A stretch of DNA of 64,000 nt, taken from assembly GCF_028890115.1 (NCBI RefSeq), contig NZ_JARCJD010000005.1:62001-126000 (forward strand), written 5' to 3'. This stretch comes from Phaeobacter sp. QD34_24 (GTDB lineage: Bacteria; Pseudomonadota; Alphaproteobacteria; Rhodobacterales; Rhodobacteraceae). Made by a program: the position numbers and the translations under genes. Positions within the stretch are counted from its first letter, which is position 1. The number at the start of each line of letters is the position of its first letter. Below, piece after piece: positions 5,393 through 16,613 of this stretch. A model generated the notes under the pieces. It had not been told where the DNA came from and searched no databases. It saw only the letters and a program-made list of their open reading frames with translations.

Positions 5393-7306
5393 TCAGACCA
5401 CTGAGATCATGAAGGCGTCAAAGAACTGGCAGAGCGCCGCATGGGCATCCAGCGGCAGCACCTGGGCCACATGCTGGTCCGGGCGCACCAGCACCATGCA
5501 ACCGCGCTTGCGGTCGATGCCGCGCATGTCGAAGATGTCCTGTCCCGATTTCAGATCCGGGCAAAAGACCTTTTCATAATCGCGCAAGCCATACTGACCT
5601 TTGAGCGGGCGCAAGAGCTCCGGCATGTCGCCCGGCGTCAGGCTGCGGAAGTCCTGCTGCAGCACAGCCCGAACATCGAGCACCGAGTCGATATCGGCGC
5701 CCTCGGGCGTGTAGCGGCGTAGCGGCGATGCGGCATCGGTTTCCAGGAACTGGCACAGGGCATGAATATCGCCCCCTTCGCCGCCCCGGTCCTCCACGCC
5801 CGCAAAGGCAAACAGCCGCCAGCGCCCGTCGGCCCGCACCACATGGCCCAGATGGATGGGGCGCGCATCAGACAGCCGGATGACCGGCGCCGAATGGAAG
5901 CGCATGCCCAGCGGGAAGCCGGTCGCCAGCGCCTGATGGCTGTCGGCTCCGGTCAGAACCGAGGGCGCGTATTGGATGGCCGTGCCTGCGGTGAAACGCC
6001 CATGCTGCACAAAATACTTCTGGAACTCCTCCGGATCTACGCCATCCTCATTGTCGTCGGATTTCGGCTTGGCGCTGAACATGCGGGCGAACTCGCGGTC
6101 GAAATCGATCAGCATCTTGGCCACGCCCTGTCGCTCGGCAGAGTAGCTGTGCAGGATGTCCGGCACCATCTGCCCGCGCAGCACGGCAGCCAGCTTCCAG
6201 CCCAGATTGAAGCCATCGCGCATGGAGACATTCATGCCCTGCCCCGCCTTGGGGCTGTGGGTGTGACAGGCGTCTCCGGCGATGAACACATGCGGCAATT
6301 GATGGTCGATATTCTCGACCGGGACGTCATCGAACTTGTCACACAGCCGCTGGCCGATCTCGTAGACAGACCACCAGGCGGTTTCCTTCACCTCCAACGT
6401 GTAGGGGTGCAGGATCCGCTGCGCCGCCGCGACCAGTTTATCGAGCGTGATATTGCGGTTGGCGACCCGCTCATCTGCCTTCAGCTTGTCCAGTTCAATA
6501 TAGAGCCGGACCATGTAGCCGCCCTCGCGCGGGATCACCAGAAGGTTGCCTTCTTCCGCCGAATGCACGGTGGCCTTCATACGGATATCGGGGAAGTCGG
6601 TGACCGCAAGCACATCCATCACGCCCCAGGCCTGATTGGCGGAATCCCCGGTCAGCTTGCGCCCGATCGCCTCGCGCACGCGGCTGCGTGCACCATCGCA
6701 GCCCACCACATATTTGGCACGCAGCACGTGGGTTTCGCCCTCGTGGCCCTCATCGGTGCGCTCCAGGGTCACGGTCACAGGGTAGTCCGCGCCCTGCTCC
6801 ACCGTTAGGTCCTTGATCCGGTGATTGTACCAGGGTTCCAGCGCGGTGGGCGCATTGCGCATTGTTTCCAGGAAGAAATCATGCACCCGCGCCTGGTTCA
6901 GGATCACATGGGGAAACTCCGACAGCCCGTCCTCTGTGTCCTGGATGCGACCGCTGCGGGTGATCTTGGCCGGGTCCTCTGCATCCGGGCGCCAGAAGGT
7001 GGTTTCATTGACCCAGTAGGACTCCTTCAGGATCTTTTCGCTGAAGCCGAAGGCCTCGAACATCTCCATCGAGCGGCAGGCAATCCCATCCGCCTGACCG
7101 ATCTCGATGGGACTGGATTTCTGCTCGACAATACCGGTACGGATATCGGGGAACACCGCCAACTGGCTGGCCAGGACCAGCCCCGTGGGCCCCGTGCCCA
7201 CGATCAGGACATCCAGTTCCGCGGGCAGCTCCCCTGCCCCGGGGCGACCTACCTTTTCCGATACGGCCGGGTCGCCGGGACGAAATCCATTCAGATGATA
7301 TTGCAT
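5393..7306 (-). CDS. mobA: 3-hydroxybenzoate 4-monooxygenase (flavoprotein)
   Basis: FAD- and NAD(P)H-dependent aromatic hydroxylase, 637 aa, expected to convert 3-hydroxybenzoate to protocatechuate in the cytoplasm. The start at 7306 follows a GGAGG ribosome site and gives the family N-terminus MQYHLNGFRPGDP; a longer in-frame start at 7369 would cross an operator. Motifs: GxGxxG dinucleotide fold (VGTGPTGLVLA, about residue 37), DG motif (VVGCDGARSRVREA), GD motif (IAGDACHTHSPKAGQGMN). The C-terminal part is the thioredoxin-like dimerisation domain of the phenol hydroxylase class. The sequence agrees along its length with what I recall of Comamonas MobA. Two palindromes upstream suggest control by a MarR-type protein not encoded nearby. 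Confidence 0.86.
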   Translation of the reverse strand: MQYHLNGFRPGDPAVSEKVGRPGAGELPAELDVLIVGTGPTGLVLASQLAVFPDIRTGIVEQKSSPIEIGQADGIACRSMEMFEAFGFSEKILKESYWVNETTFWRPDAEDPAKITRSGRIQDTEDGLSEFPHVILNQARVHDFFLETMRNAPTALEPWYNHRIKDLTVEQGADYPVTVTLERTDEGHEGETHVLRAKYVVGCDGARSRVREAIGRKLTGDSANQAWGVMDVLAVTDFPDIRMKATVHSAEEGNLLVIPREGGYMVRLYIELDKLKADERVANRNITLDKLVAAAQRILHPYTLEVKETAWWSVYEIGQRLCDKFDDVPVENIDHQLPHVFIAGDACHTHSPKAGQGMNVSMRDGFNLGWKLAAVLRGQMVPDILHSYSAERQGVAKMLIDFDREFARMFSAKPKSDDNEDGVDPEEFQKYFVQHGRFTAGTAIQYAPSVLTGADSHQALATGFPLGMRFHSAPVIRLSDARPIHLGHVVRADGRWRLFAFAGVEDRGGEGGDIHALCQFLETDAASPLRRYTPEGADIDSVLDVRAVLQQDFRSLTPGDMPELLRPLKGQYGLRDYEKVFCPDLKSGQDIFDMRGIDRKRGCMVLVRPDQHVAQVLPLDAHAALCQFFDAFMISVV

Positions 7307-7332
7307 GCGTTTTCCTCCATGGCGCGCCATTT

Positions 7333-7348
7333 GGTAAGCATGCTTACC
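7333..7348. promoter_or_regulatory. Perfect 16-bp palindrome upstream of mobA (operator 1)
   Basis: GGTAAGCATGCTTACC is a perfect palindrome 27 bases upstream of the mobA start codon. A near copy lies 43 bp farther upstream. Size and symmetry fit a dimeric MarR- or TetR-type repressor. The regulator itself is inferred, not seen. Confidence 0.7.
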
Positions 7349-7375
7349 TATCGATAGCGCCTCGGTCAATCATTT

Positions 7376-7932: not shown

Positions 7933-8178
7933 TCAGCCCCCGGTCATAGGCGGGAAGAAGGCAACTTCACGCACACCCTCAAGGGAGGCATCGAAATCCG
8001 ACAACTCCTGATCCAGCGCCACCCGCAGGGCCGACAGATCAGCAAAGGCCGCCTCATAGCGCTGCTCACGCGCGCGCAGCTCCTCGACCAGATCGGCAAC
8101 GGTCGCGGCAGAGCTCTCAATGCTCTCGCGCGGCAGACCGATCCGCTCACGCACCCAGGCGAAATACAGAATGTCCAT
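7933..8178 (-). CDS. moaD: Molybdopterin synthase sulfur-carrier subunit
   Basis: Small ubiquitin-like sulfur carrier, 81 aa from the ATG at 8178. It ends in the required Gly-Gly (FFPPMTGG), whose C-terminus is adenylated and thiocarboxylated. The start overlaps the pgsA stop (ATGA). Longer in-frame starts fall inside pgsA and are rejected. It forms the heterotetrameric synthase with MoaE. Confidence 0.92.
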   Translation of the reverse strand: MDILYFAWVRERIGLPRESIESSAATVADLVEELRAREQRYEAAFADLSALRVALDQELSDFDASLEGVREVAFFPPMTGG

Positions 8179-8849
8179 CAGCGGGTCTCCTTCAGGTGCG
8201 GCAGGGCTTTTTTCAGATAATCCACGCCGGTGATCAGGGTCAGCGCCGCGGCAATCCACAACAGCCACAAGCCGATCCGCCCGGTCCAGACCATGCCATC
8301 GTATTTCCAGTTCAACCCGACCGTATCCTCCACCGCGCCCGAGAGCACCCCTTCGATCAGCGCATCATCCATCCCGAAGGAGGACATCACCAGATAGTGT
8401 TCAAAAACCCCCTGGCAGAACAGCGCGGCAATGGCGGTCATCTGCGCCGTGGTCTTCCACTTGGCCAGCTGCGTGACCTTCAGCGTGCCCGCGGTATCGC
8501 CAAGGTATTCGCGCAGACCCGACACGAACACCTCGCGGAACAGGATCACCGTTGCGGGCAGCACCAGCCAGGGCGCCCAGTGCTCTGCCGCGTAGCCCAC
8601 CAGGATCATCAGGGCGATCACAACCATGGCCTTGTCGGCGATCGGATCCAGCATGGCCCCCATCTTGGTTTCCTGTTTCCAGGCCCGCGCAAGGTAGCCG
8701 TCGAACCAGTCTGTCACCGCCGCGCCAACGAATAGGAGCAGCGCAAACCAGTCCGCCAGAGGGCGATTGAAATAGAGGAACATGATGGCGAGACCGGGTG
8801 CAGCAAGCAGCCGCACGACAGTCAGGATATTCGGCAAGGTCCATATCAT
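8178..8849 (-). CDS. pgsA: CDP-diacylglycerol-glycerol-3-phosphate 3-phosphatidyltransferase
   Basis: Membrane enzyme of 223 aa making phosphatidylglycerol phosphate, the committed step to phosphatidylglycerol. The CDP-alcohol phosphotransferase signature DG-x2-AR-x8-G-x3-D-x3-D is complete around residues 48-72 (FDGYLAR ... MGAMLDPIAD). Several hydrophobic helices surround it. It heads the pgsA-moaD-moaE unit. In related bacteria uvrC usually sits directly upstream; here a 5.7-kb islet separates them. Confidence 0.92.
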   Translation of the reverse strand: MIWTLPNILTVVRLLAAPGLAIMFLYFNRPLADWFALLLFVGAAVTDWFDGYLARAWKQETKMGAMLDPIADKAMVVIALMILVGYAAEHWAPWLVLPATVILFREVFVSGLREYLGDTAGTLKVTQLAKWKTTAQMTAIAALFCQGVFEHYLVMSSFGMDDALIEGVLSGAVEDTVGLNWKYDGMVWTGRIGLWLLWIAAALTLITGVDYLKKALPHLKETR

Positions 8850-8862
8850 GGCCGCACATTAT

Positions 8863-8889
8863 CCCGCTGTTTCACAAGTGGAAAGCGGG
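8863..8889. terminator. Hairpin between the TRAP gene and pgsA
   Basis: Bases 8863-8889 form an imperfect stem (CCCGCT...AGCGGG with an inner CAC/GTG, loop AA). It lies 3' of the TRAP transporter gene and just 5' of pgsA, both on the minus strand. There is no T-run after it, so termination is only a possibility. Confidence 0.3.
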
Positions 8890-8960: not shown

Positions 8961-11261
8961 CTAGGCTGGCGCAGGTTTGCGTTGAGACCGGACAAGGAGC
9001 ACATGCGCACCAATCAGCGCCAGCGCCAGCGCAACGCCAAACCACAGCACAAGGGCAGTCTTCCACAGCACCAGAACGGCGGCCAGCAGGCGCAGCGCCA
9101 CTTCCCAGCGGGCAAGCCGCCCCTGGTCGAACCGCGCCAGGGCCGAGGCCATGAGATACAGCGCCAGCACCAGACGCAGGCCCAGCATGGCCAGCGGCAT
9201 AAGTTCGACTTCGCCGCTGTAGCCCACGATCAGGGTTCGGCGGCCCATGTCATCGGTGATGGTCACCGCCTCTTCGATCAGCAACAATTCGGGATACCAG
9301 GCAAAGACGAAGGGAATGGTGAACATCACGATCCCCACCCGGACGGCGGCAATGCCGGTGCGCATCGGCTCGGTCCGGGTGATCGAGGCGGCGGCAAAGG
9401 CGGCAATCGCCACCGGCGGCGTGATGGCCGAGGCAACCGCGAAGTAGAAAACGAACATATGCGCGGTGAAGAAACTCACCCCCAGATTGGCCAGAAGCGG
9501 CCCCAGCAAGAGAGCCACATTCACATAGGCCGGTACCGTGGGCATCCCCATCCCCAGGATGATAGCGCAGACCATGGCGCAGGTGAGCGCCAGCATCAGG
9601 TAGACGCCGCCGACGATCGGGATCTCGAAGCCAAAGAGACGCAGGACCCGCGCCTGCTCCAGCCAGGAGGTGACGGCACGGGTCAGCTCTCCGGTCAGTC
9701 CGCTTTCGTTGAGAAAGGCCGAGATGATCGAGACCGCAAACAGGAGCAGGAACAGGCGCGACAGAAGGATGCCGCCATCGGCCAGCGACATGAGGATCTT
9801 CGCGGGCCGCGCGCGGGTTTCGGGATCCAGGAACAAGAGCGGCAGCAGCACCGCAACGGCCCACCACCCGGCAGAGACCGCATCGCCCGTGGCATTGACC
9901 ACGATCTGGGTCGCAAAGCCGGGCATCAGACCGGCGAACAGGCCCGATCCAACCGCATCCTTGTTGCCCAGAAGCAGGAACAGGATGGTCAGGATCGGCA
10001 GAAAGATGATCACGAGGTTCAGCCAGTCCTGGCGGTGCATCACGAGATCTTCGGGGATTTCGCGCATGGCCTCCACCCGGTCGCGCCGGGCCTGGAACAT
10101 CACCGCGAGAAAGATCGAGAAGAAGAACGCCATGGCCGGGAGGAAGGCCGCCGTGATCACCTTGGTGTAGGGAACCGCCGTCAGGGCCACCAGCACAAAG
10201 GCCGCCACCCCCATGACAGGCGGCATGATCTGCCCGCCAGAGGAGGCCGCCGCCTCCACCCCGCCCGCAAACTGTGGTGAAAACCCGTTGCGCCGCATCA
10301 TTGGGATGGTCAGCCGCCCTGTCGATAGCACGTTGGTCACAGGCCCGCCGGTGATAGTGCCGAACATGGCAGACGATACGATGGCGGCATGGGCTGGCCC
10401 ACCGCGTAAGTGCCGCGTCATCCGCACCGCCAGCTTGATCAGCGAGGTGCCACCGGCCGAGGTGCCAAACAACGCGCCGAGGATCACGTAAGGGAAGACC
10501 TGGTTGACCACGATGTCCATGAACCGCCCCATGATGCCATCCGGGGTGATGAAGACATTGGCGGCCTTCTGGATCGCCGCTGCGCTGACGTCGCCGCCAT
10601 CGGCGCCCAGCTTGGTCAGAAGGAAGTTGTTGCCGCTGAGGTCAAACATCCAGATCAGCGCCGTGCCCACGGTGTATATCACCACGACGCTGGCCACCGC
10701 CACCAGCGGCAGCCCCCAGACCCGCACGTTATAGAGGAAGAACAGCGTGATGATGGTGAACAAAAGCGGGATGATCCAGATCCCGAAGCGCGCCTGACAG
10801 GCGGGCACCTCGGCCTCGAACGAGATCCCCGGGATGACCCCGACCGACCGTTCGGCAGCCTCCTTGATTAGGCGGGCCCGTTCGCCGGTGATCTGGTCTA
10901 TGAGGCAGACCGAGTCGATCTCCACCAGGAACCCCAAGGCCGCCAGAAAGGCCGCAAGGATCAGCCCCGCATCCAAGAGCAGCCCCAGCCAGGCCAGATG
11001 CGGCTTGCTCCCCTTCCACGCCCTGTAGACGCTGGCATCCAGTGCCACGATGACCATCATCAACAGGAAGACCGGCGGGTAGAAGAATTCGGGCGGGAAG
11101 CCGGAGACGCGGAAGAAGGGGCGCCCGGTGATCTCGCGCGCCCAATCCTGCAGACCGGGGATTTCCGGCATGGTGTTGACCATGCCGACAAGCACGAGAA
11201 CAAGCGCAAGCCCCACGGCGATGCGCTGACCGATGGGCCGGGAAGGAGCGATATCTGTCAT
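8961..11261 (-). CDS. TRAP transporter permease, fused small and large subunits (TAXI type)
   Basis: Membrane protein of 766 aa with the 4TM/12TM fusion arrangement typical of TAXI-TRAP systems. An N-terminal DctQ-like part and a periplasmic loop with cysteines (about residues 120-165) are followed by the large DctM-like transport domain (GTSAGGTSLIKLAVR, ATGDAVSAG, MGMPTVPAYV). Uptake would be driven by an ion gradient. The gene is downstream of and co-directional with the TAXI binding-protein gene, with a gap of 57 bases. Substrate unknown; the divergent sulfatase suggests a sulfated or related organic anion. Confidence 0.9.
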   Translation of the reverse strand: MTDIAPSRPIGQRIAVGLALVLVLVGMVNTMPEIPGLQDWAREITGRPFFRVSGFPPEFFYPPVFLLMMVIVALDASVYRAWKGSKPHLAWLGLLLDAGLILAAFLAALGFLVEIDSVCLIDQITGERARLIKEAAERSVGVIPGISFEAEVPACQARFGIWIIPLLFTIITLFFLYNVRVWGLPLVAVASVVVIYTVGTALIWMFDLSGNNFLLTKLGADGGDVSAAAIQKAANVFITPDGIMGRFMDIVVNQVFPYVILGALFGTSAGGTSLIKLAVRMTRHLRGGPAHAAIVSSAMFGTITGGPVTNVLSTGRLTIPMMRRNGFSPQFAGGVEAAASSGGQIMPPVMGVAAFVLVALTAVPYTKVITAAFLPAMAFFFSIFLAVMFQARRDRVEAMREIPEDLVMHRQDWLNLVIIFLPILTILFLLLGNKDAVGSGLFAGLMPGFATQIVVNATGDAVSAGWWAVAVLLPLLFLDPETRARPAKILMSLADGGILLSRLFLLLFAVSIISAFLNESGLTGELTRAVTSWLEQARVLRLFGFEIPIVGGVYLMLALTCAMVCAIILGMGMPTVPAYVNVALLLGPLLANLGVSFFTAHMFVFYFAVASAITPPVAIAAFAAASITRTEPMRTGIAAVRVGIVMFTIPFVFAWYPELLLIEEAVTITDDMGRRTLIVGYSGEVELMPLAMLGLRLVLALYLMASALARFDQGRLARWEVALRLLAAVLVLWKTALVLWFGVALALALIGAHVLLVRSQRKPAPA

Positions 11262-11318
11262 GTCACCGGAGCCTAGAAATGGGCAAGGCCGCAGCTGCGG
11301 CCCTGCGGAAATGTCCGA

Positions 11319-12374
11319 TCAGGGGCGCAGGCAGTCGGCAATCATGTGACCGGCATCCTCAAAGGCGCGGATTGCACCGGGGTGCATCTTGATCTGCACC
11401 GCGCCGCAGGCACCCTGGCTGACACCATCGATGTCACCAAAGCTGAGCCGCGTGTAAGGCCCGCGTGGAGAGCCTTTCAGGAAACGCTCCTCACCCTCCA
11501 GATAGGCCTTGGTCACCGCATAGACGAGGTCTTCATCCAGCCCGGCTGGCACGATCTGGCCAAAGGCGGTGGCGAAACTGTCGAAACTGTCATCGTCCGT
11601 GACGATGGTGATGTCATTGCCTCCATAGGCCGCGCGGAATTCCTCGACCGGGACCGAATAGAGCGCATGGCCCGGTGCCGCCAGGATCTGCTGACCCAGC
11701 TTGCTCGCCAACAGGTCGGACGGCACGTCGTGGATGGTGATCCCGCCCGCAGCCGCGATGGCGATCTGACGCCCCGAGGGCAGACCTTCGGGGATCGTCC
11801 AGGCATCGGCGCCACCTCCGGTGATGGTGGACACCGTATCGGGCCAGGGCGTCTGGATCCCCTCGTAGCCTTCGCCGTCCTTGATGCCGGACAAAAGCTG
11901 GATCATCGCCCTTCCTGAGGTCAGCGCTGCACCGCGCGGCGGACCGTTCCAGATCCGCTTTCCGGCAAGGTCACGAATATCTTCGACTGGATTGCTGTTG
12001 TAATAGCCCAGCATCTGCGCCGAGCCTGCGTTGAAGAAGATCACCCGGATATTGGCCGCCAGTTCGGCGCCCTTTTCAGGCCCGATGCCGCTGTAGGGAC
12101 CGATACCGCGCGCCAGCAGGAAGGGCAGGATCAACGGCGCGGGCGCCATGTCCAGCCGCCCCTCGGCCACCGCCTGCACCGAATTGGTCAGCGTGGCGCC
12201 TTCGGTGATCTGCATCGTGGCAACACCGGCACTGTCGAGCACCGCCGCAAGCGTCGAATCGATGTAATGCGGCGTTGAACCCGGCGTCGTGGTCTCGGCG
12301 GTCAGCGTGGCCTGGGCCGCGGCCGCCATGGGCGCCAGCGCCAGCACGCCTGCAAGAAGCGTCTGTTTGATCAT
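11319..12374 (-). CDS. TAXI-family TRAP transporter solute-binding protein
   Basis: Periplasmic binding protein, 351 aa from the ATG at 12374, preceded by GGGAGGA. A signal peptide is clear (MIKQTLLAGVLALAPMAAAAQA). Family segments include TPHYIDSTLAAVLDS, IRVIFFNAGSAQML, GKRIWNGPPRGAA and KMHPGAIRAFEDAG. It is the first gene of the transporter operon and is divergent from a MarR regulator gene, with which it shares a 137-bp control region. Confidence 0.9.
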   Translation of the reverse strand: MIKQTLLAGVLALAPMAAAAQATLTAETTTPGSTPHYIDSTLAAVLDSAGVATMQITEGATLTNSVQAVAEGRLDMAPAPLILPFLLARGIGPYSGIGPEKGAELAANIRVIFFNAGSAQMLGYYNSNPVEDIRDLAGKRIWNGPPRGAALTSGRAMIQLLSGIKDGEGYEGIQTPWPDTVSTITGGGADAWTIPEGLPSGRQIAIAAAGGITIHDVPSDLLASKLGQQILAAPGHALYSVPVEEFRAAYGGNDITIVTDDDSFDSFATAFGQIVPAGLDEDLVYAVTKAYLEGEERFLKGSPRGPYTRLSFGDIDGVSQGACGAVQIKMHPGAIRAFEDAGHMIADCLRP

Positions 12375-12452
12375 GAGTTCCTCCCTAAGGTGCCCGCCCT
12401 CCTCCAAAGGCGGATGCCCCCTGTTCCGGGGGTCATGTTTTCAGGCTTGCAG

Positions 12453-12480
12453 AAATTATATGACTTGTCACGAATTATTT
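12453..12480. promoter_or_regulatory. Dyad in the TAXI / marR control region
   Basis: The stretch 12453-12480 is a symmetrical AT-rich dyad with outer AAAT/ATTT and a core of TGAC-TT-GTCA. It sits between the two divergent starts, where the MarR protein of 12512 would be expected to bind. Assignment to that regulator is inference. Confidence 0.5.
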
Positions 12481-12511
12481 TTTCGGGCTTTATCAGGGCA
12501 ATGGGAGGAAC

Positions 12512-13024
12512 ATGATGAGCAAGCCCACCGAAAGGGACATCGCGGGGATTCGCGCACGTCAGGCACGGGAGGATTACAACCTCTTCTCGCGGCTCCCGGC
12601 GGTCTATGCCGCCTCGCGCAGCCAGGGGCAGAAGTTCCTGCAGAAAGGCGGCGGGCTGTCGATCGTGGAATGGCGCACCCTTTGGGATCTGCACGAGGTC
12701 GGCCCGATGACGATCCGCGATCTGGCGACGATCCAGCGCGCCGATCATTCCCTCCTGAGCCGCGCCCTGCCCGAGATGCGCCGCAAGGGGTTCGTCACCA
12801 TGCGCCGCGATGTGCAGGACGGGCGGCAAACCATCGTGGAGATCGCCGAGGCCGGGCGCGCCGCCTATGAGCGCGCAGCCCCGGTGATGGCCCGTCGCCG
12901 TGCCGCCCTGCACGGGGTCTTCTCGGAAGAGGAAATCGCGGCCTTTGTCGGCTATCTTGACCGGATGGAAGAGTTCCTGCGAATCCCCATCGAAGAATTC
13001 CTGAAAGAGGACACCGTGGAATGA
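12512..13024 (+). CDS. MarR-family transcriptional regulator
   Basis: DNA-binding regulator of 170 aa with a winged helix in the middle: the segment TIRDLATIQRADHSLLSRAL is the helix-turn-helix, and a wing follows (RDVQDGRQTIVEI). A GGGAGGA ribosome site lies before the ATG. The stop overlaps the sulfatase start (ATGA). Being divergent from the TAXI operon and coupled to the sulfatase, it probably controls both units in response to the imported compound. Confidence 0.9.
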   Translation: MMSKPTERDIAGIRARQAREDYNLFSRLPAVYAASRSQGQKFLQKGGGLSIVEWRTLWDLHEVGPMTIRDLATIQRADHSLLSRALPEMRRKGFVTMRRDVQDGRQTIVEIAEAGRAAYERAAPVMARRRAALHGVFSEEEIAAFVGYLDRMEEFLRIPIEEFLKEDTVE

Positions 13025-14667
13025 CAGACCGCCCCAACGTGCTTTGGATCATGGCTGACCAGCTGCGGTTCGACTACCTCAGTTGCTATGGCCATCCGCA
13101 TCTGCACACGCCCCATATCGATGCGCTGGCGGCGCGCGGCGTGCGCTTCACAAACGCTTATGTGCAATCCCCTGTCTGCGGGCCGTCGCGGATGTCGGCC
13201 TATACCGGGCGATATGTGCGCAGCCATGGTTCGACCTGGAACGGCATGCCACTGCGCGTGGGCGAGCCAACCTTGGGCGACCATCTGCGCGAGGTGGACG
13301 CCCGCGCGGTGCTGGTGGGAAAGACCCACATGACCGCCGATGCCGAAGGCATGGCCTGGCTCGGCATCGATCCCGCCAGCGAAATCGGCGTGCGCGTATC
13401 CGAATGCGGGTTCGAACCCTTCGAACGAGACGATGGGCTCCACCCCGACAGCCCACGGCAGAACTGGTCCGCCTATGACGACTACCTCGTGGCGCATGGA
13501 TTTTCCTCTGACAACCCGTGGGAGGATTTTGCCAATTCCGGTTTGGATGACGATGGCGAGCTGCTATCGGCCTGGCTCTTGAAGAACTCGCGCCTTGCCG
13601 CCAACGTGCCCGAGGAACACTCGGAAACCGCCTATATGACCGACCGCGCCATGGCCTTCATGGAAAAGGCGAGCGAAGACGGGCGCCCCTGGGTCTGTCA
13701 CCTCTCCTATATCAAGCCGCACTGGCCCTATATCGTGCCCGCGCCCTATCACGACATGTATGACGAGCGGCACATCGTCGATCCCGTGCGATCCGAGGCC
13801 GAGCGGCAGACGGATCATCCCCTGATGCAGGCCTATCTCGATGCGCGGGTCTGCCGCAGCTTTGCCCGTGATCATGTGCGCGAACATGTGATCCCGGCCT
13901 ATATGGGGCTGATCAAGCAGCTGGATGACAACCTTGGCCGCCTGTTCGCCTGGATGGATGAGACGGGCCTCAGCGACAACACCATCGTCGCCTTCACTTC
14001 GGACCATGGTGATTACATGGGCGACCACTGGATGGGCGACAAGGATTTCTATCACGAGATGGCGGTGAAGGTGCCGCTGATCATCGCCGACCCCCGCAAG
14101 GATGCCGATGGCACCCGCGGCTTGGTCACGGATGAACTGGTCGAAATGATCGACCTTGCCCCCACCTTCATGAAGGCTGTCGGCTGCCCCGCCAAACCCC
14201 ATGTGATTGAAGGGCGTGATCTCACGCCGATCCTGCATGGCACGGACGGGTTCTCGCGCCGTTATGTTATCAGCGAACACGATTACCACTGGTCCGACAT
14301 GGCCCGCACGCTGGAGCAGCCTCAGGAAGATGCCCATACCACGATGATCTTTGACGGGCGCTGGAAGTACATCCGCTGCGAAGGCTTCCGCCCGGTGCTG
14401 TTCGATCTTGAGACAGACGCGCAGGAGATCACGGATATCGGCGGCTCGGATCTGCCCGAACATGTCGCGGTGCGCGCTCGGATGGAGGCGGCCCTCTTGG
14501 ATTGGGCGACGCGCCATCACACGCGGATCACCGCAACCCAGACCGTGCTGGCACGACAGAAACTGGCGGCCGAAACCGGCATCCTGATCGGGTTCTGGGA
14601 TGAGGCCGAATACAAGGAGGTGACCGGCAAGGCCTTTGAGGATCTCACCCCGCAGGGCCGCCCCTGA
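13021..14667 (+). CDS. Sulfatase / phosphonate monoester hydrolase-like enzyme
   Basis: Alkaline-phosphatase superfamily hydrolase, 548 aa. Cys53 lies in SPVCGPSRMSAYTGR, matching the C-x-P-S-R site where the cysteine becomes formylglycine in type I sulfatases and some phosphonate monoester hydrolases. Metal-site segments are visible (VLWIMADQLRFD near the N-terminus; TSDHGDYMGDH near residue 325). No signal peptide is seen, so it probably acts in the cytoplasm after TRAP uptake. The usual DDQ is ADQ here. Substrate class (sulfate ester or phosphonate/phosphate ester) is open. Confidence 0.85.
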   Translation: MTDRPNVLWIMADQLRFDYLSCYGHPHLHTPHIDALAARGVRFTNAYVQSPVCGPSRMSAYTGRYVRSHGSTWNGMPLRVGEPTLGDHLREVDARAVLVGKTHMTADAEGMAWLGIDPASEIGVRVSECGFEPFERDDGLHPDSPRQNWSAYDDYLVAHGFSSDNPWEDFANSGLDDDGELLSAWLLKNSRLAANVPEEHSETAYMTDRAMAFMEKASEDGRPWVCHLSYIKPHWPYIVPAPYHDMYDERHIVDPVRSEAERQTDHPLMQAYLDARVCRSFARDHVREHVIPAYMGLIKQLDDNLGRLFAWMDETGLSDNTIVAFTSDHGDYMGDHWMGDKDFYHEMAVKVPLIIADPRKDADGTRGLVTDELVEMIDLAPTFMKAVGCPAKPHVIEGRDLTPILHGTDGFSRRYVISEHDYHWSDMARTLEQPQEDAHTTMIFDGRWKYIRCEGFRPVLFDLETDAQEITDIGGSDLPEHVAVRARMEAALLDWATRHHTRITATQTVLARQKLAAETGILIGFWDEAEYKEVTGKAFEDLTPQGRP

Positions 14668-14675
14668 CGCGGCCC
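14655..14675. terminator. GC hairpin across the sulfatase/uvrC convergence
   Basis: GGGCCGC (14655-14661) pairs with GCGGCCC (14669-14675), a perfect 7-bp stem spanning the sulfatase stop codon and reaching the uvrC 3' end. It has no T-run. It may act as a weak terminator for both convergent genes. Confidence 0.35.
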
Positions 14676-16541
14676 CTAGCCCTGGCCGTGGAAGTGATCG
14701 TAGATCCGCTCGGCCAGGGCGGCTGAGATACCCTCGACAGCTTTGAGGTCCGACAGGTCGGCACGGCTCACCGCCTTGGCGCTGCCGAAATGCGCCAGCA
14801 GGGCCCGCTTGCGGCTGGCGCCGACCCCTGAGATTTCATCAAGCGGCGTTGCCCCCATCGCCTTGGCCCGCTTGGCCCGGTGGGTGCCGATGGCGAACCT
14901 ATGCGCCTCGTCCCGCAGGCGCTGGATGAAATAGAGCACCGGATCGTTGCGCTGCAGGGCAAAGGCATTCTCGCCGGGGCGGTAGAACTCTTCTTTGCCG
15001 TGATCGCGGTCGACGCCCTTGGCGACACCCACCATGGGAATGTCCTGCACGCCGTGTTCTTCCATGATTTCTGCCACCGCCGAGACCTGCCCTGCGCCAC
15101 CATCGATCAGCAGAAGATCCGGCCACATGCCCTTTTCGCGGTCGGGATCCTCTTTCAGCAGGCGCGAGAAGCGGCGGTTCAACACCTCTTTCATCATCCC
15201 GAAGTCATCGCCAGGGGTCAGGTCATCGCCCCTGATGTTGAACTTGCGATAGGCGTTCTTCATTAGACCTTCGGGGCCTGCCACAATCATTCCCCCCACC
15301 GCATTGCTGCCCTGAATGTGGGAGTTGTCGTAGACCTCGATCCGCTGCGGCGGGCCATCCAGGCCAAAGGCATCGGCAAGACCTTTCAACAGTTTGGCCT
15401 GGGTCGCGCTTTCGGCCATGCGCCGGGCCAGGCTTTCGCGGGCATTGCGCACGGCACCTGCCACGAGTTCGGTCTTTTCGCCGCGCTGGGGCACCAGGAT
15501 TTCAACCTTGTGGTCCGCCTTCTCGCTCAGCGCTTCTTGCATCAGATCGCCATTCTCGATGTCGTCCGACAGGATCAGCTGACGCGGCGGCTGCTTGTTG
15601 CTGTAGAACTGACCCAGGAAGGCCTCCATCACCTCGGCCGGGCTATTGTCCGCATCCACGCGTGGGTAGAAATCCTGGTTGCCCCAGTTCTGGTTGGCCC
15701 GGATGAAGAAGACCTGCACGCAGGCCTGCCCCCCCTCCATGTGAAGGCCGATGATATCTGCCTCGGCCACGCCGCGCGGGTTGATCCCTTGCGAAGACTG
15801 CACCTGCGTCAGCGCCTTGATCCGGTCCCGCAGGGCGGCTGCGCGCTCGAACTCCATCGCCTCGGAGGCCGCCATCATCTGCTCGGCCAGTTCCTCCTGG
15901 ATCTTGGTGGAGCGCCCCGAAAGGAACCGTTCCGCATCGCGGACCGAGGCGGCGTAGTCCTCGGCGCTGATTTCACCCGTGCAGGGGGCCGAGCAACGCT
16001 TGATCTGGTATTGCAGGCAGGGGCGCGTGCGGCTTTCAAACATCGCATCCGAACAGTTGCGCAACAGGAACGCCTTTTGCAGCTGATTGAGCGTCCGGTT
16101 CACCGCCCCCGCGCTGGCGAAGGGGCCGAAATAGCTACCCTTCTCCTTGCGGGCGCCGCGGTGTTTCTTGATCTGCGCAAAGGCGTGATCCTTGGAGACC
16201 AGGATATTGGGAAAACTTTTGTCATCGCGCAGCAGCACGTTGTACTTGGGCTTGAGCTGCTTGATCAGGTTCTGCTCCAGAAGCAGCGCCTCGGTTTCCG
16301 TCCGCGTGGTCAGAAACATCATCGAGGTGGTAAGCGCGATCATCCGCTCGATCCGGGGGCTGTTTCCCGGCCGTGTGTAGTTCGAAACCCGTGCTTTCAG
16401 GTTTCGCGCCTTGCCCACGTATAGAACCCGGCTTTCCGCATCCAGCATCCGGTAAACGCCCGGAGAGGCATCCAGCGTCTTCACATAATCCTGGATCACG
16501 GCATAGCCGCTGCGGGGCGTTTCGGAGATCTGATCGCTCAT
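14676..16541 (-). CDS. uvrC: Excinuclease ABC subunit C
   Basis: Nucleotide-excision-repair nuclease that makes both incisions in the UvrBC-DNA complex; 621 aa from the chosen start. Domains in order: GIY-YIG nuclease ([20 protein letters not shown], near residue 30), UVR domain ([18 protein letters not shown]), RNase H-like nuclease region ([21 protein letters not shown]), and C-terminal helix-hairpin-helix ([19 protein letters not shown]). The open frame extends to a GTG at 16613, but ATG 16541 ([12 protein letters not shown]) matches the length seen in relatives; neither start has a strong ribosome site. Confidence 0.93.
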
Positions 16542-16613
16542 GTCGTCACACATATGATTCTCTGCATGTCGCTGCAATGTTTGCGCTTCGGGTTCAAGAG
16601 CGGACAAATCCAC

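Follow-up and report, generated by a model that had tools for sequence, protein, structure and literature searches.

The window considered here, a 64,000-nucleotide stretch of the genome of the marine-type bacterium Phaeobacter sp. QD34_24, carries a four-gene islet (8961-14667) between the housekeeping genes uvrC and pgsA, and all four genes are intact (Table 1). They encode a solute-binding protein of the TAXI type, a TRAP permease, a MarR-family regulator and a sulfatase-like hydrolase, and the domain matches and coordinates bear out the sequence-only reading, which had described a TAXI-TRAP/MarR/sulfatase islet at this place. With a GC content of 63.4% against 61.6% in the flanks the islet is ordinary in composition, no convincing repeats that could mark mobile-element borders were found at its ends, and a promoter scan of the region returned 2 matches where 1.4 were expected. 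A functional tie to the phenol-hydroxylase-type gene at 5393-7369 was ruled out, because this gene is kept in all four congeners compared, including the one without the islet.

Table 1. Features of the islet and of its flanks in the window.
Feature	Position	Strand	Basis or remark
pgsA	8178..8849	-	flank, outside the cassette; kept with moaD/moaE in relatives
TRAP transporter fused permease, 766 aa	8961..11261	-	PF06808, E=7.2e-57; TIGR02123, 344.7 bits (cut-off 320.65)
TAXI-type solute-binding protein	11319..12374	-	PF16868, 54.2 bits, above cut-off; N-terminal signal peptide by inspection
Predicted MarR operator TTATATGACTTGTCACG	12456..12472	+	core palindrome ATGAC-TT-GTCAC at 12460-12471
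MarR-family regulator	12512..13024	+	PF01047, 39.3 bits (cut-off 24.6); divergent from the transporter, first gene of the hydrolase operon
SpAS-type arylsulfatase (predicted)	13021..14667	+	PF00884, 155 bits; 4-bp overlap with the MarR stop
uvrC	14676..16613	-	flank, outside the cassette

The solute-binding protein belongs to the TAXI family. Besides its PF16868 match, a profile built from its relatives matches the solved TAXI proteins 8s4j, 9ibo and 1us4 (best E=1.5e-14). Its match to TIGR02122 spans the full model length yet stays below the curated cut-off (50.1 bits, E=1.8e-13; cut-off 84.35), and the protein is therefore a divergent member. The TIGR02123 score identifies its partner as a single fused TRAP permease, and an orthologue of this permease stands beside every TAXI orthologue examined. 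Most TAXI ligands known so far are carboxylates, glutamate and alpha-ketoglutarate among them (PMC11574862), and the same source cites a report of o-phthalate uptake by a TAXI-TRAP. In a profile alignment of low identity, the window protein tentatively shows H, L, P, and S at the four positions whose side chains bind glutamate in VcGluP (Y45, S75, Q93, and E125). A structure prediction from an 11-row alignment was too poor for use (mean pLDDT 54.7).

By sequence, the hydrolase is a member of the SpAS1/SpAS2 arylsulfatase group. In phmmer searches against solved structures it matched 4upi (E=1.3e-202) and 4upl (E=7.4e-192); its identity to SpAS1 and SpAS2 is 58 and 54%, respectively, over nearly the whole chain, and in the tree it falls in the same family as these two enzymes, in a different subclade. 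It carries the formylglycine motif C53-G-P-S-R57, of the form C-x-P/A-x-R, and the genome holds a gene of the formylglycine-generating-enzyme family (PF03781, E=1.3e-50). No signal peptide is visible on the hydrolase, which is presumably cytoplasmic. The sequence-only reading had allowed for a phosphonate ester as the substrate; on this account the enzyme would act on phosphonate monoesters or phosphodiesters, and the whole cassette would serve phosphorus scavenging. The arylsulfatase and phosphonate-hydrolase branches are indeed related (best phosphonate hydrolase match 2w8s, E=5e-58), among NCBIfam models that of the phosphoric/sulfuric ester hydrolase PehA matches best, although with 282 bits far under its cut-off of 900, and SpAS enzymes are described as promiscuous (PMC12421950). 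For SpAS2 the same source gives a kcat/KM of 2.1e5 with p-nitrophenyl sulfate as substrate and of 4.0e2 with the phosphonate. Phosphonate hydrolases carry Tyr and Asp/Thr at the positions of K101 and H103 (PMC5488252), whereas in the window hydrolase and the 16 relatives compared all 11 active-site positions are invariant, K101 and H103 included. This arylsulfatase pair, with the far closer similarity to SpAS1/2 (1e-202 against 5e-58), speaks against a phosphonate monoester hydrolase, and the phosphonate option of the sequence-only reading is not supported. The neighbouring genes at related loci are, moreover, SulP-type and not phosphorus genes. A phosphonate or phosphodiester hydrolase with a role in phosphorus scavenging is very improbable.

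The regulator has the winged-helix domain of the MarR family, and its divergence from the transporter operon is conserved in 14 intact cassettes. In 17 of 23 loci the MarR and sulfatase genes overlap by 4 bp. The palindrome RTGAC-TT-GTCAY lies in the intergenic region between the divergent operons of nearly all orthologous cassettes, and in some loci both of its outer bases are altered together (ATGAC..GTCAT in G003, L181, and L182). It is nearly single-copy, with hardly a further match in the carrier genomes away from the cassette; it is kept upstream of MarR-sulfatase where the TAXI gene or the transporter is missing, and it is absent from the islet-free congener (G002). Because it is conserved, almost unique and stays with MarR-sulfatase without the transporter, the palindrome is probably the MarR operator. 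The scarcity of additional copies in the carrier genomes speaks against a wider MarR regulon.

Across the family, a TAXI orthologue was found in 19 of 395 Rhodobacteraceae genomes (18 besides the source, 62-94% identity), and in 14 of these 19 carriers MarR and sulfatase stand beside it in the same divergent layout with unrelated flanks. Roughly one genus in twenty of the family has the cassette with its own DNA control site, at unrelated places. The distance from TAXI to sulfatase in the divergent cassettes is 630-696 bp, and dN/dS is 0.03-0.04 for the sulfatase and 0.04 for TAXI. That 14 of the 395 genomes have these four genes in one and the same layout excludes a chance grouping.

The sequence-only reading took uvrC, pgsA, moaD and moaE to be usually adjacent in the family, which is partly right for uvrC and pgsA. 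Of the 30 relatives whose pgsA upstream region was inspected, 20 have uvrC upstream on the same strand, nine of them within 200 bp, and in the other ten the 1.3-13 kb covered held no recognised uvrC. Unrelated genes often intervene between the two. A synteny comparison, which had been proposed as a check, found no relatives outside this genus with the cassette between uvrC and pgsA, and the position is genus-specific. To read meaning into the placement was nevertheless to read too much: the junction is variable and the cassette has landed at many other sites as well, so the location has no functional meaning and the position of the cassette is incidental. Even within the genus the islet varies, being intact in two of four species, decayed in its transporter in one and missing in one. 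In the islet-free congener, homology ends at 8889 and restarts at 14675, with an unlike 203-aa open reading frame in the gap. The congener with the decayed transporter (G003) lacks TAXI and has a degenerate permease, with MarR and sulfatase intact and under strong purifying selection (dN/dS 0.035). The hydrolase is therefore useful without this transporter.

With 19 TAXI and 18 sulfatase genomes, about 0.9 joint genomes would be expected under independence (19 x 18 / 395), and 14 were seen. Of 105 TAXI relatives, 55 lie no more than 8 kb from a member of this sulfatase subfamily, where 0.54 would be expected (a roughly 100-fold enrichment), in divergent as well as co-directional layouts. Two side-by-side functions have to be weighed against this: the TAXI-TRAP would import an ordinary organic acid as a carbon source, and MarR-sulfatase would be a unit of its own for sulfur scavenging or detoxification, having just the intergenic region and the operator in common with the transporter. 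The persistence of MarR-sulfatase in G003 fits such an arrangement, as do the carboxylate ligands of known TAXI proteins and the occurrence of each half without the other (four of 18 sulfatase orthologues have no TAXI nearby, in G277, G068, G140, and G272, and four TAXI orthologues no sulfatase, in G389, G161, G212, and G181). It accounts poorly for the enrichment in both layouts, for four genes that stay together in 14 cassettes at unrelated loci and, tentatively, for the replaced glutamate positions, and we regard it as unlikely. Obligatory coupling of transporter and hydrolase is weakened by G003 and by sulfatases that adjoin other importers elsewhere.

Importers were found near many of the 107 sulfatase loci, namely TAXI at 33, TctC/TctA at 19, DctPQM at 8, Liv at 7 and Ssu/Tau-type ABC at 7. 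These labels come from seed searches on genes called with a home-made program, and the distant ones are loose; about a third of the loci have no recognised importer within 6 kb, and for the same reason this class is an upper bound. The picture is that of a cytoplasmic enzyme next to uptake systems. SulP sulfate-permease-family genes directly adjoin the sulfatase at three loci (L086, L170, and L183), which fits with sulfate as a product. The islet itself lacks catabolic genes from which the product could be read, and aromatic leads come from elsewhere: a sulfatase that shares its operon with a Liv-type importer and an FAD monooxygenase of the ring-hydroxylase type (L248), a TAXI-TRAP-sulfatase locus adjoining homogentisate dioxygenase (L250), and an FAD monooxygenase that stands where the sulfatase would be (L084). 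A sulfated amino sugar or other monosaccharide, freed by other organisms, imported and desulfated in the cytoplasm, is suggested by locus L186, where genes for a ROK-family sugar kinase and a NagA-like amidohydrolase come after a sulfatase orthologue (78%), next to DctPQM, and by an SGSH_C domain match in the window hydrolase. L186 is one locus only and its transporter is of a different type, the aromatic-type neighbours occur at three loci, and the characterised relatives are efficient on an aryl sulfate (PMC12421950); a sugar sulfate is thus a distinctly unlikely substrate. The ester would most likely be a phenolic sulfate and thereby aromatic, in preference to sulfates of sugars or alkyl groups.

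The explanation that we consider reasonably probable is that the islet forms a portable cassette, used in catabolism or scavenging, with import of an organic sulfate ester, cytoplasmic desulfation and local MarR control. The TAXI protein would bind an anionic sulfate ester in the periplasm and the fused permease would move it into the cytoplasm, where the arylsulfatase, its C53 turned into formylglycine by the genome's own generating enzyme, would split it into free sulfate and a phenol or alcohol; the transporter would carry the sulfatase's own substrate. MarR, bound to the palindrome, may control both divergent operons, with substrate or product relieving it, the direction of this regulation being our supposition. 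A self-contained system of import and hydrolysis under one regulator, as suggested from the window, draws support from the layout at unrelated loci, the MarR-sulfatase overlap, the palindrome, the lack of a visible signal peptide and the 100-fold enrichment. The literature searched, with most subscription journals outside it, yielded no described pathway with this combination, and the claim of novelty is provisional.

More tentatively, a large share of Rhodobacteraceae TAXI-TRAPs may be importers of organosulfate esters, each paired with a cytoplasmic sulfatase of the SpAS type. This would be an undescribed route, of which at least one version is portable and under MarR control. If true, it would give a physiological role to both orphan TAXI proteins and SpAS arylsulfatases, and the enrichment turns it into one testable proposal, namely that such TAXI proteins have sulfate esters as ligands. 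Algal material commonly contains phenolic and sugar sulfates, and the cassette could therefore be a way, so far unrecognised, in which these bacteria turn over organosulfur and carbon.

Compared with known systems, the window transporter shares with VcGluP (glutamate), TtGluBP and the o-phthalate TAXI of Azoarcus a TAXI binding protein with one fused permease. It is only distantly similar to them in sequence, the glutamate-contacting residues of VcGluP are, as far as the low-identity alignment tells, not kept, and a divergent MarR-sulfatase operon is attached. With SpAS1 and SpAS2 of Ruegeria (Silicibacter) pomeroyi (4upi and 4upl, dimeric) the hydrolase has all catalytic positions in common, K101/H103 included; the nearest SpAS1 relative in the set (L164) adjoins TctC/TctA-type genes and the nearest SpAS2 relatives no recognised importer, whereas the window sulfatase clade mostly adjoins TAXI-TRAP. 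Choline-sulfatase activity was undetectable in SpAS1 and SpAS2 (PMC5870055). Choline-sulfatase (BetC) is likewise a cytoplasmic formylglycine sulfatase of the same superfamily, but the window hydrolase scores 199.3 bits against its model TIGR03417, under the cut-off of 433.45. Distant relatives of the window sulfatase also occur in Ssu/Tau-type ABC operons (L215, L241, L242, and L247). The Ssu/Tau/Ats ABC organosulfur systems, with sulfatases or monooxygenases, import their substrates and then release the sulfur in the cytoplasm; the window cassette follows the same logic, and differs from them in combining a TRAP secondary transporter, a formylglycine sulfatase and a local MarR regulator.

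The cassette is a real, conserved and portable unit, probably of organosulfate uptake and hydrolysis, in which the genome context suggests that the transporter and the sulfatase are coupled. In a set of 395 genomes, nearly one per genus, an orthologue of TAXI, the solute-binding protein of a TRAP-type importer, was detected in 19 (62-100% identity) and an essentially complete orthologue of the sulfatase in 18 (75-100% identity), and both occurred together in 14, with about 0.9 expected if they were independent. In all 14 joint carriers the two genes are adjacent and divergent, with a MarR gene between them and unrelated flanks; Vannielia litorea, Salipiger mangrovisoli, Tropicibacter naphthalenivorans and Jannaschia sp. 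Os4 are among the carriers. A further carrier, G245 (locus L087), holds a decayed cassette in which stop codons interrupt the TAXI frame and the sulfatase is broken. A 13-kb stretch of the genome G217 contains two TAXI-TRAP-sulfatase cassettes, which belong to different clades.

The host genome is 3.9 Mb in size and of Rhodobacteraceae type, and the window corresponds to contig C45, 62001-126000. The four genes between uvrC and pgsA are all intact. The window TAXI protein scored above the Pfam cut-off, and the NCBIfam TAXI model matched it over its full length yet under the curated cut-off; a profile built from its relatives recognised the solved TAXI proteins, and by sequence it is thus classed as a divergent family member. 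A MobA-like FAD hydroxylase (phenol 2-monooxygenase) gene adjoining moaE is kept in all four congeners, whether the islet is present or not.

Features of the cassette, its surroundings and related loci
Feature	Location	Strand	Length	Remark
Fused TRAP permease		minus	766 aa	Pfam/NCBIfam profile match
TAXI binding protein		minus	351 aa	Pfam/NCBIfam profile match
MarR regulator		plus	170 aa	4-bp overlap with sulfatase gene
Sulfatase-family hydrolase		plus	548 aa	4-bp overlap with MarR gene
MobA-like FAD hydroxylase	window 5393-7369
Paired cassettes, G217	L080:1362-14017
Decayed permease, G003	L076:7979-8947
TAXI-TRAP-MarR locus	L084:10862-14332

The sequence-only reading took uvrC and pgsA to be normally adjacent, which holds in part: the junction is often tight (at most 200 bp in 9 of 30 relatives), but unrelated genes also occur there. 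Among the four species of the genus compared, G001 carries the cassette complete and at this same junction, G003 shows an intact MarR-sulfatase operon (97% identity) beside frame-broken permease fragments, the TAXI gene being deleted, and G002 has no cassette gene and an unrelated 203-aa ORF instead. No orthologous cassette from another genus adjoins uvrC or pgsA, so the expectation that relatives lack a same-place copy was borne out beyond the genus, and the position in the window is a genus-level event without functional weight.

More distant TAXI relatives (to about 24% identity) were checked against the list of sulfatase matches, and at least 55 of 105 had a sulfatase of the subfamily no more than 8 kb away (0.54 expected). 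Outside the window-type clade most pairs run in the same direction, with 65-280 bp between the two genes. Mapped onto a tree of 94 sulfatases, the TAXI label requires 15 changes versus 26 in shuffles, indicating that the pairing is clustered, yet gained and lost repeatedly. TAXI-TRAP is the commonest importer partner found beside the sulfatase, other members adjoining DctPQM TRAP, TctC/TctA-type, Liv-type or Ssu/Tau-type importers; the common denominator is an uptake system next to a sulfatase that acts in the cytoplasm. The strongest counter-observation to coupling is G003, where the sulfatase persists under constraint after transporter decay, which implies that another importer can supply the substrate or that it also arises internally.

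Repression is the usual mode of MarR-type regulators, and the cassette probably has an operator of its own, as predicted from one strongly conserved element, TTAT[AG]TGACTTGTCACG, which surrounds the palindrome RTGAC-TT-GTCAY and is common to the intergenic regions of the orthologous cassettes; the clear exception, L089, is also without MarR. A search of 20 genomes with at most two mismatches located sites at the cassette and almost none elsewhere (none in G002), the absence elsewhere being the informative part because the pattern was derived from the cassette sites themselves. At sulfatase loci without TAXI (L157, L181, L182, L185 and that of G003) the palindrome is still present upstream of either MarR or the sulfatase, so it tracks the MarR-sulfatase part of the cassette rather than the transporter. 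Outer bases in both arms are altered together in G003, L181 and L182, and the core in G003 is fully symmetric. The 4-bp overlap of the MarR and sulfatase genes recurs at 17 of 23 loci. At L084, where an alcohol dehydrogenase, an FAD monooxygenase and a MetE-like gene take the sulfatase's usual place, the operator is kept with one mismatch.

The window hydrolase has D13, Q14, C53, R57, N74, K101, H103, H234, D328, H329 and K341 invariant in 16 relatives, and its dN/dS is 0.03-0.04. A gene of the formylglycine-generating-enzyme family was found in the host genome. No signal peptide is visible on the hydrolase, which should therefore act in the cytoplasm. Of the sulfate or phosphonate ester proposed earlier, the enzyme class and the SulP-family sulfate permease genes directly next to the sulfatase in L183, L086 and L170 point to a sulfate ester; these permeases possibly handle the released sulfate. 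Neighbourhoods offer leads to aromatic esters (L248, L250, L084) and to a sugar ester (L186). Recurrent neighbours are a DUF3237 gene beside the TRAP permease (L080, L084, L085, L086, L175) and a UPF0261 (Tm-1-like) gene near the cassette or sulfatase (L093, L094, L187, L240).

In a low-identity alignment the window TAXI protein has other residues where VcGluP binds glutamate (PMC11574862), which weakly disfavours glutamate as its ligand. The closest solved structures to the hydrolase are 4upi and 4upl, SpAS1 and SpAS2 of R. pomeroyi (PMC5870055, PMC12421950). K101 and H103, numbered identically in SpAS1 and the window enzyme, occupy the pair of active-site positions at which phosphonate monoester hydrolases have other residues (PMC5488252), and the preference of SpAS2 for p-nitrophenyl sulfate over the phosphonate is about 500-fold (PMC12421950). 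The combination provisionally appears to be without prior description in the literature covered, mainly outside subscription journals, and its parts are all of known kinds.
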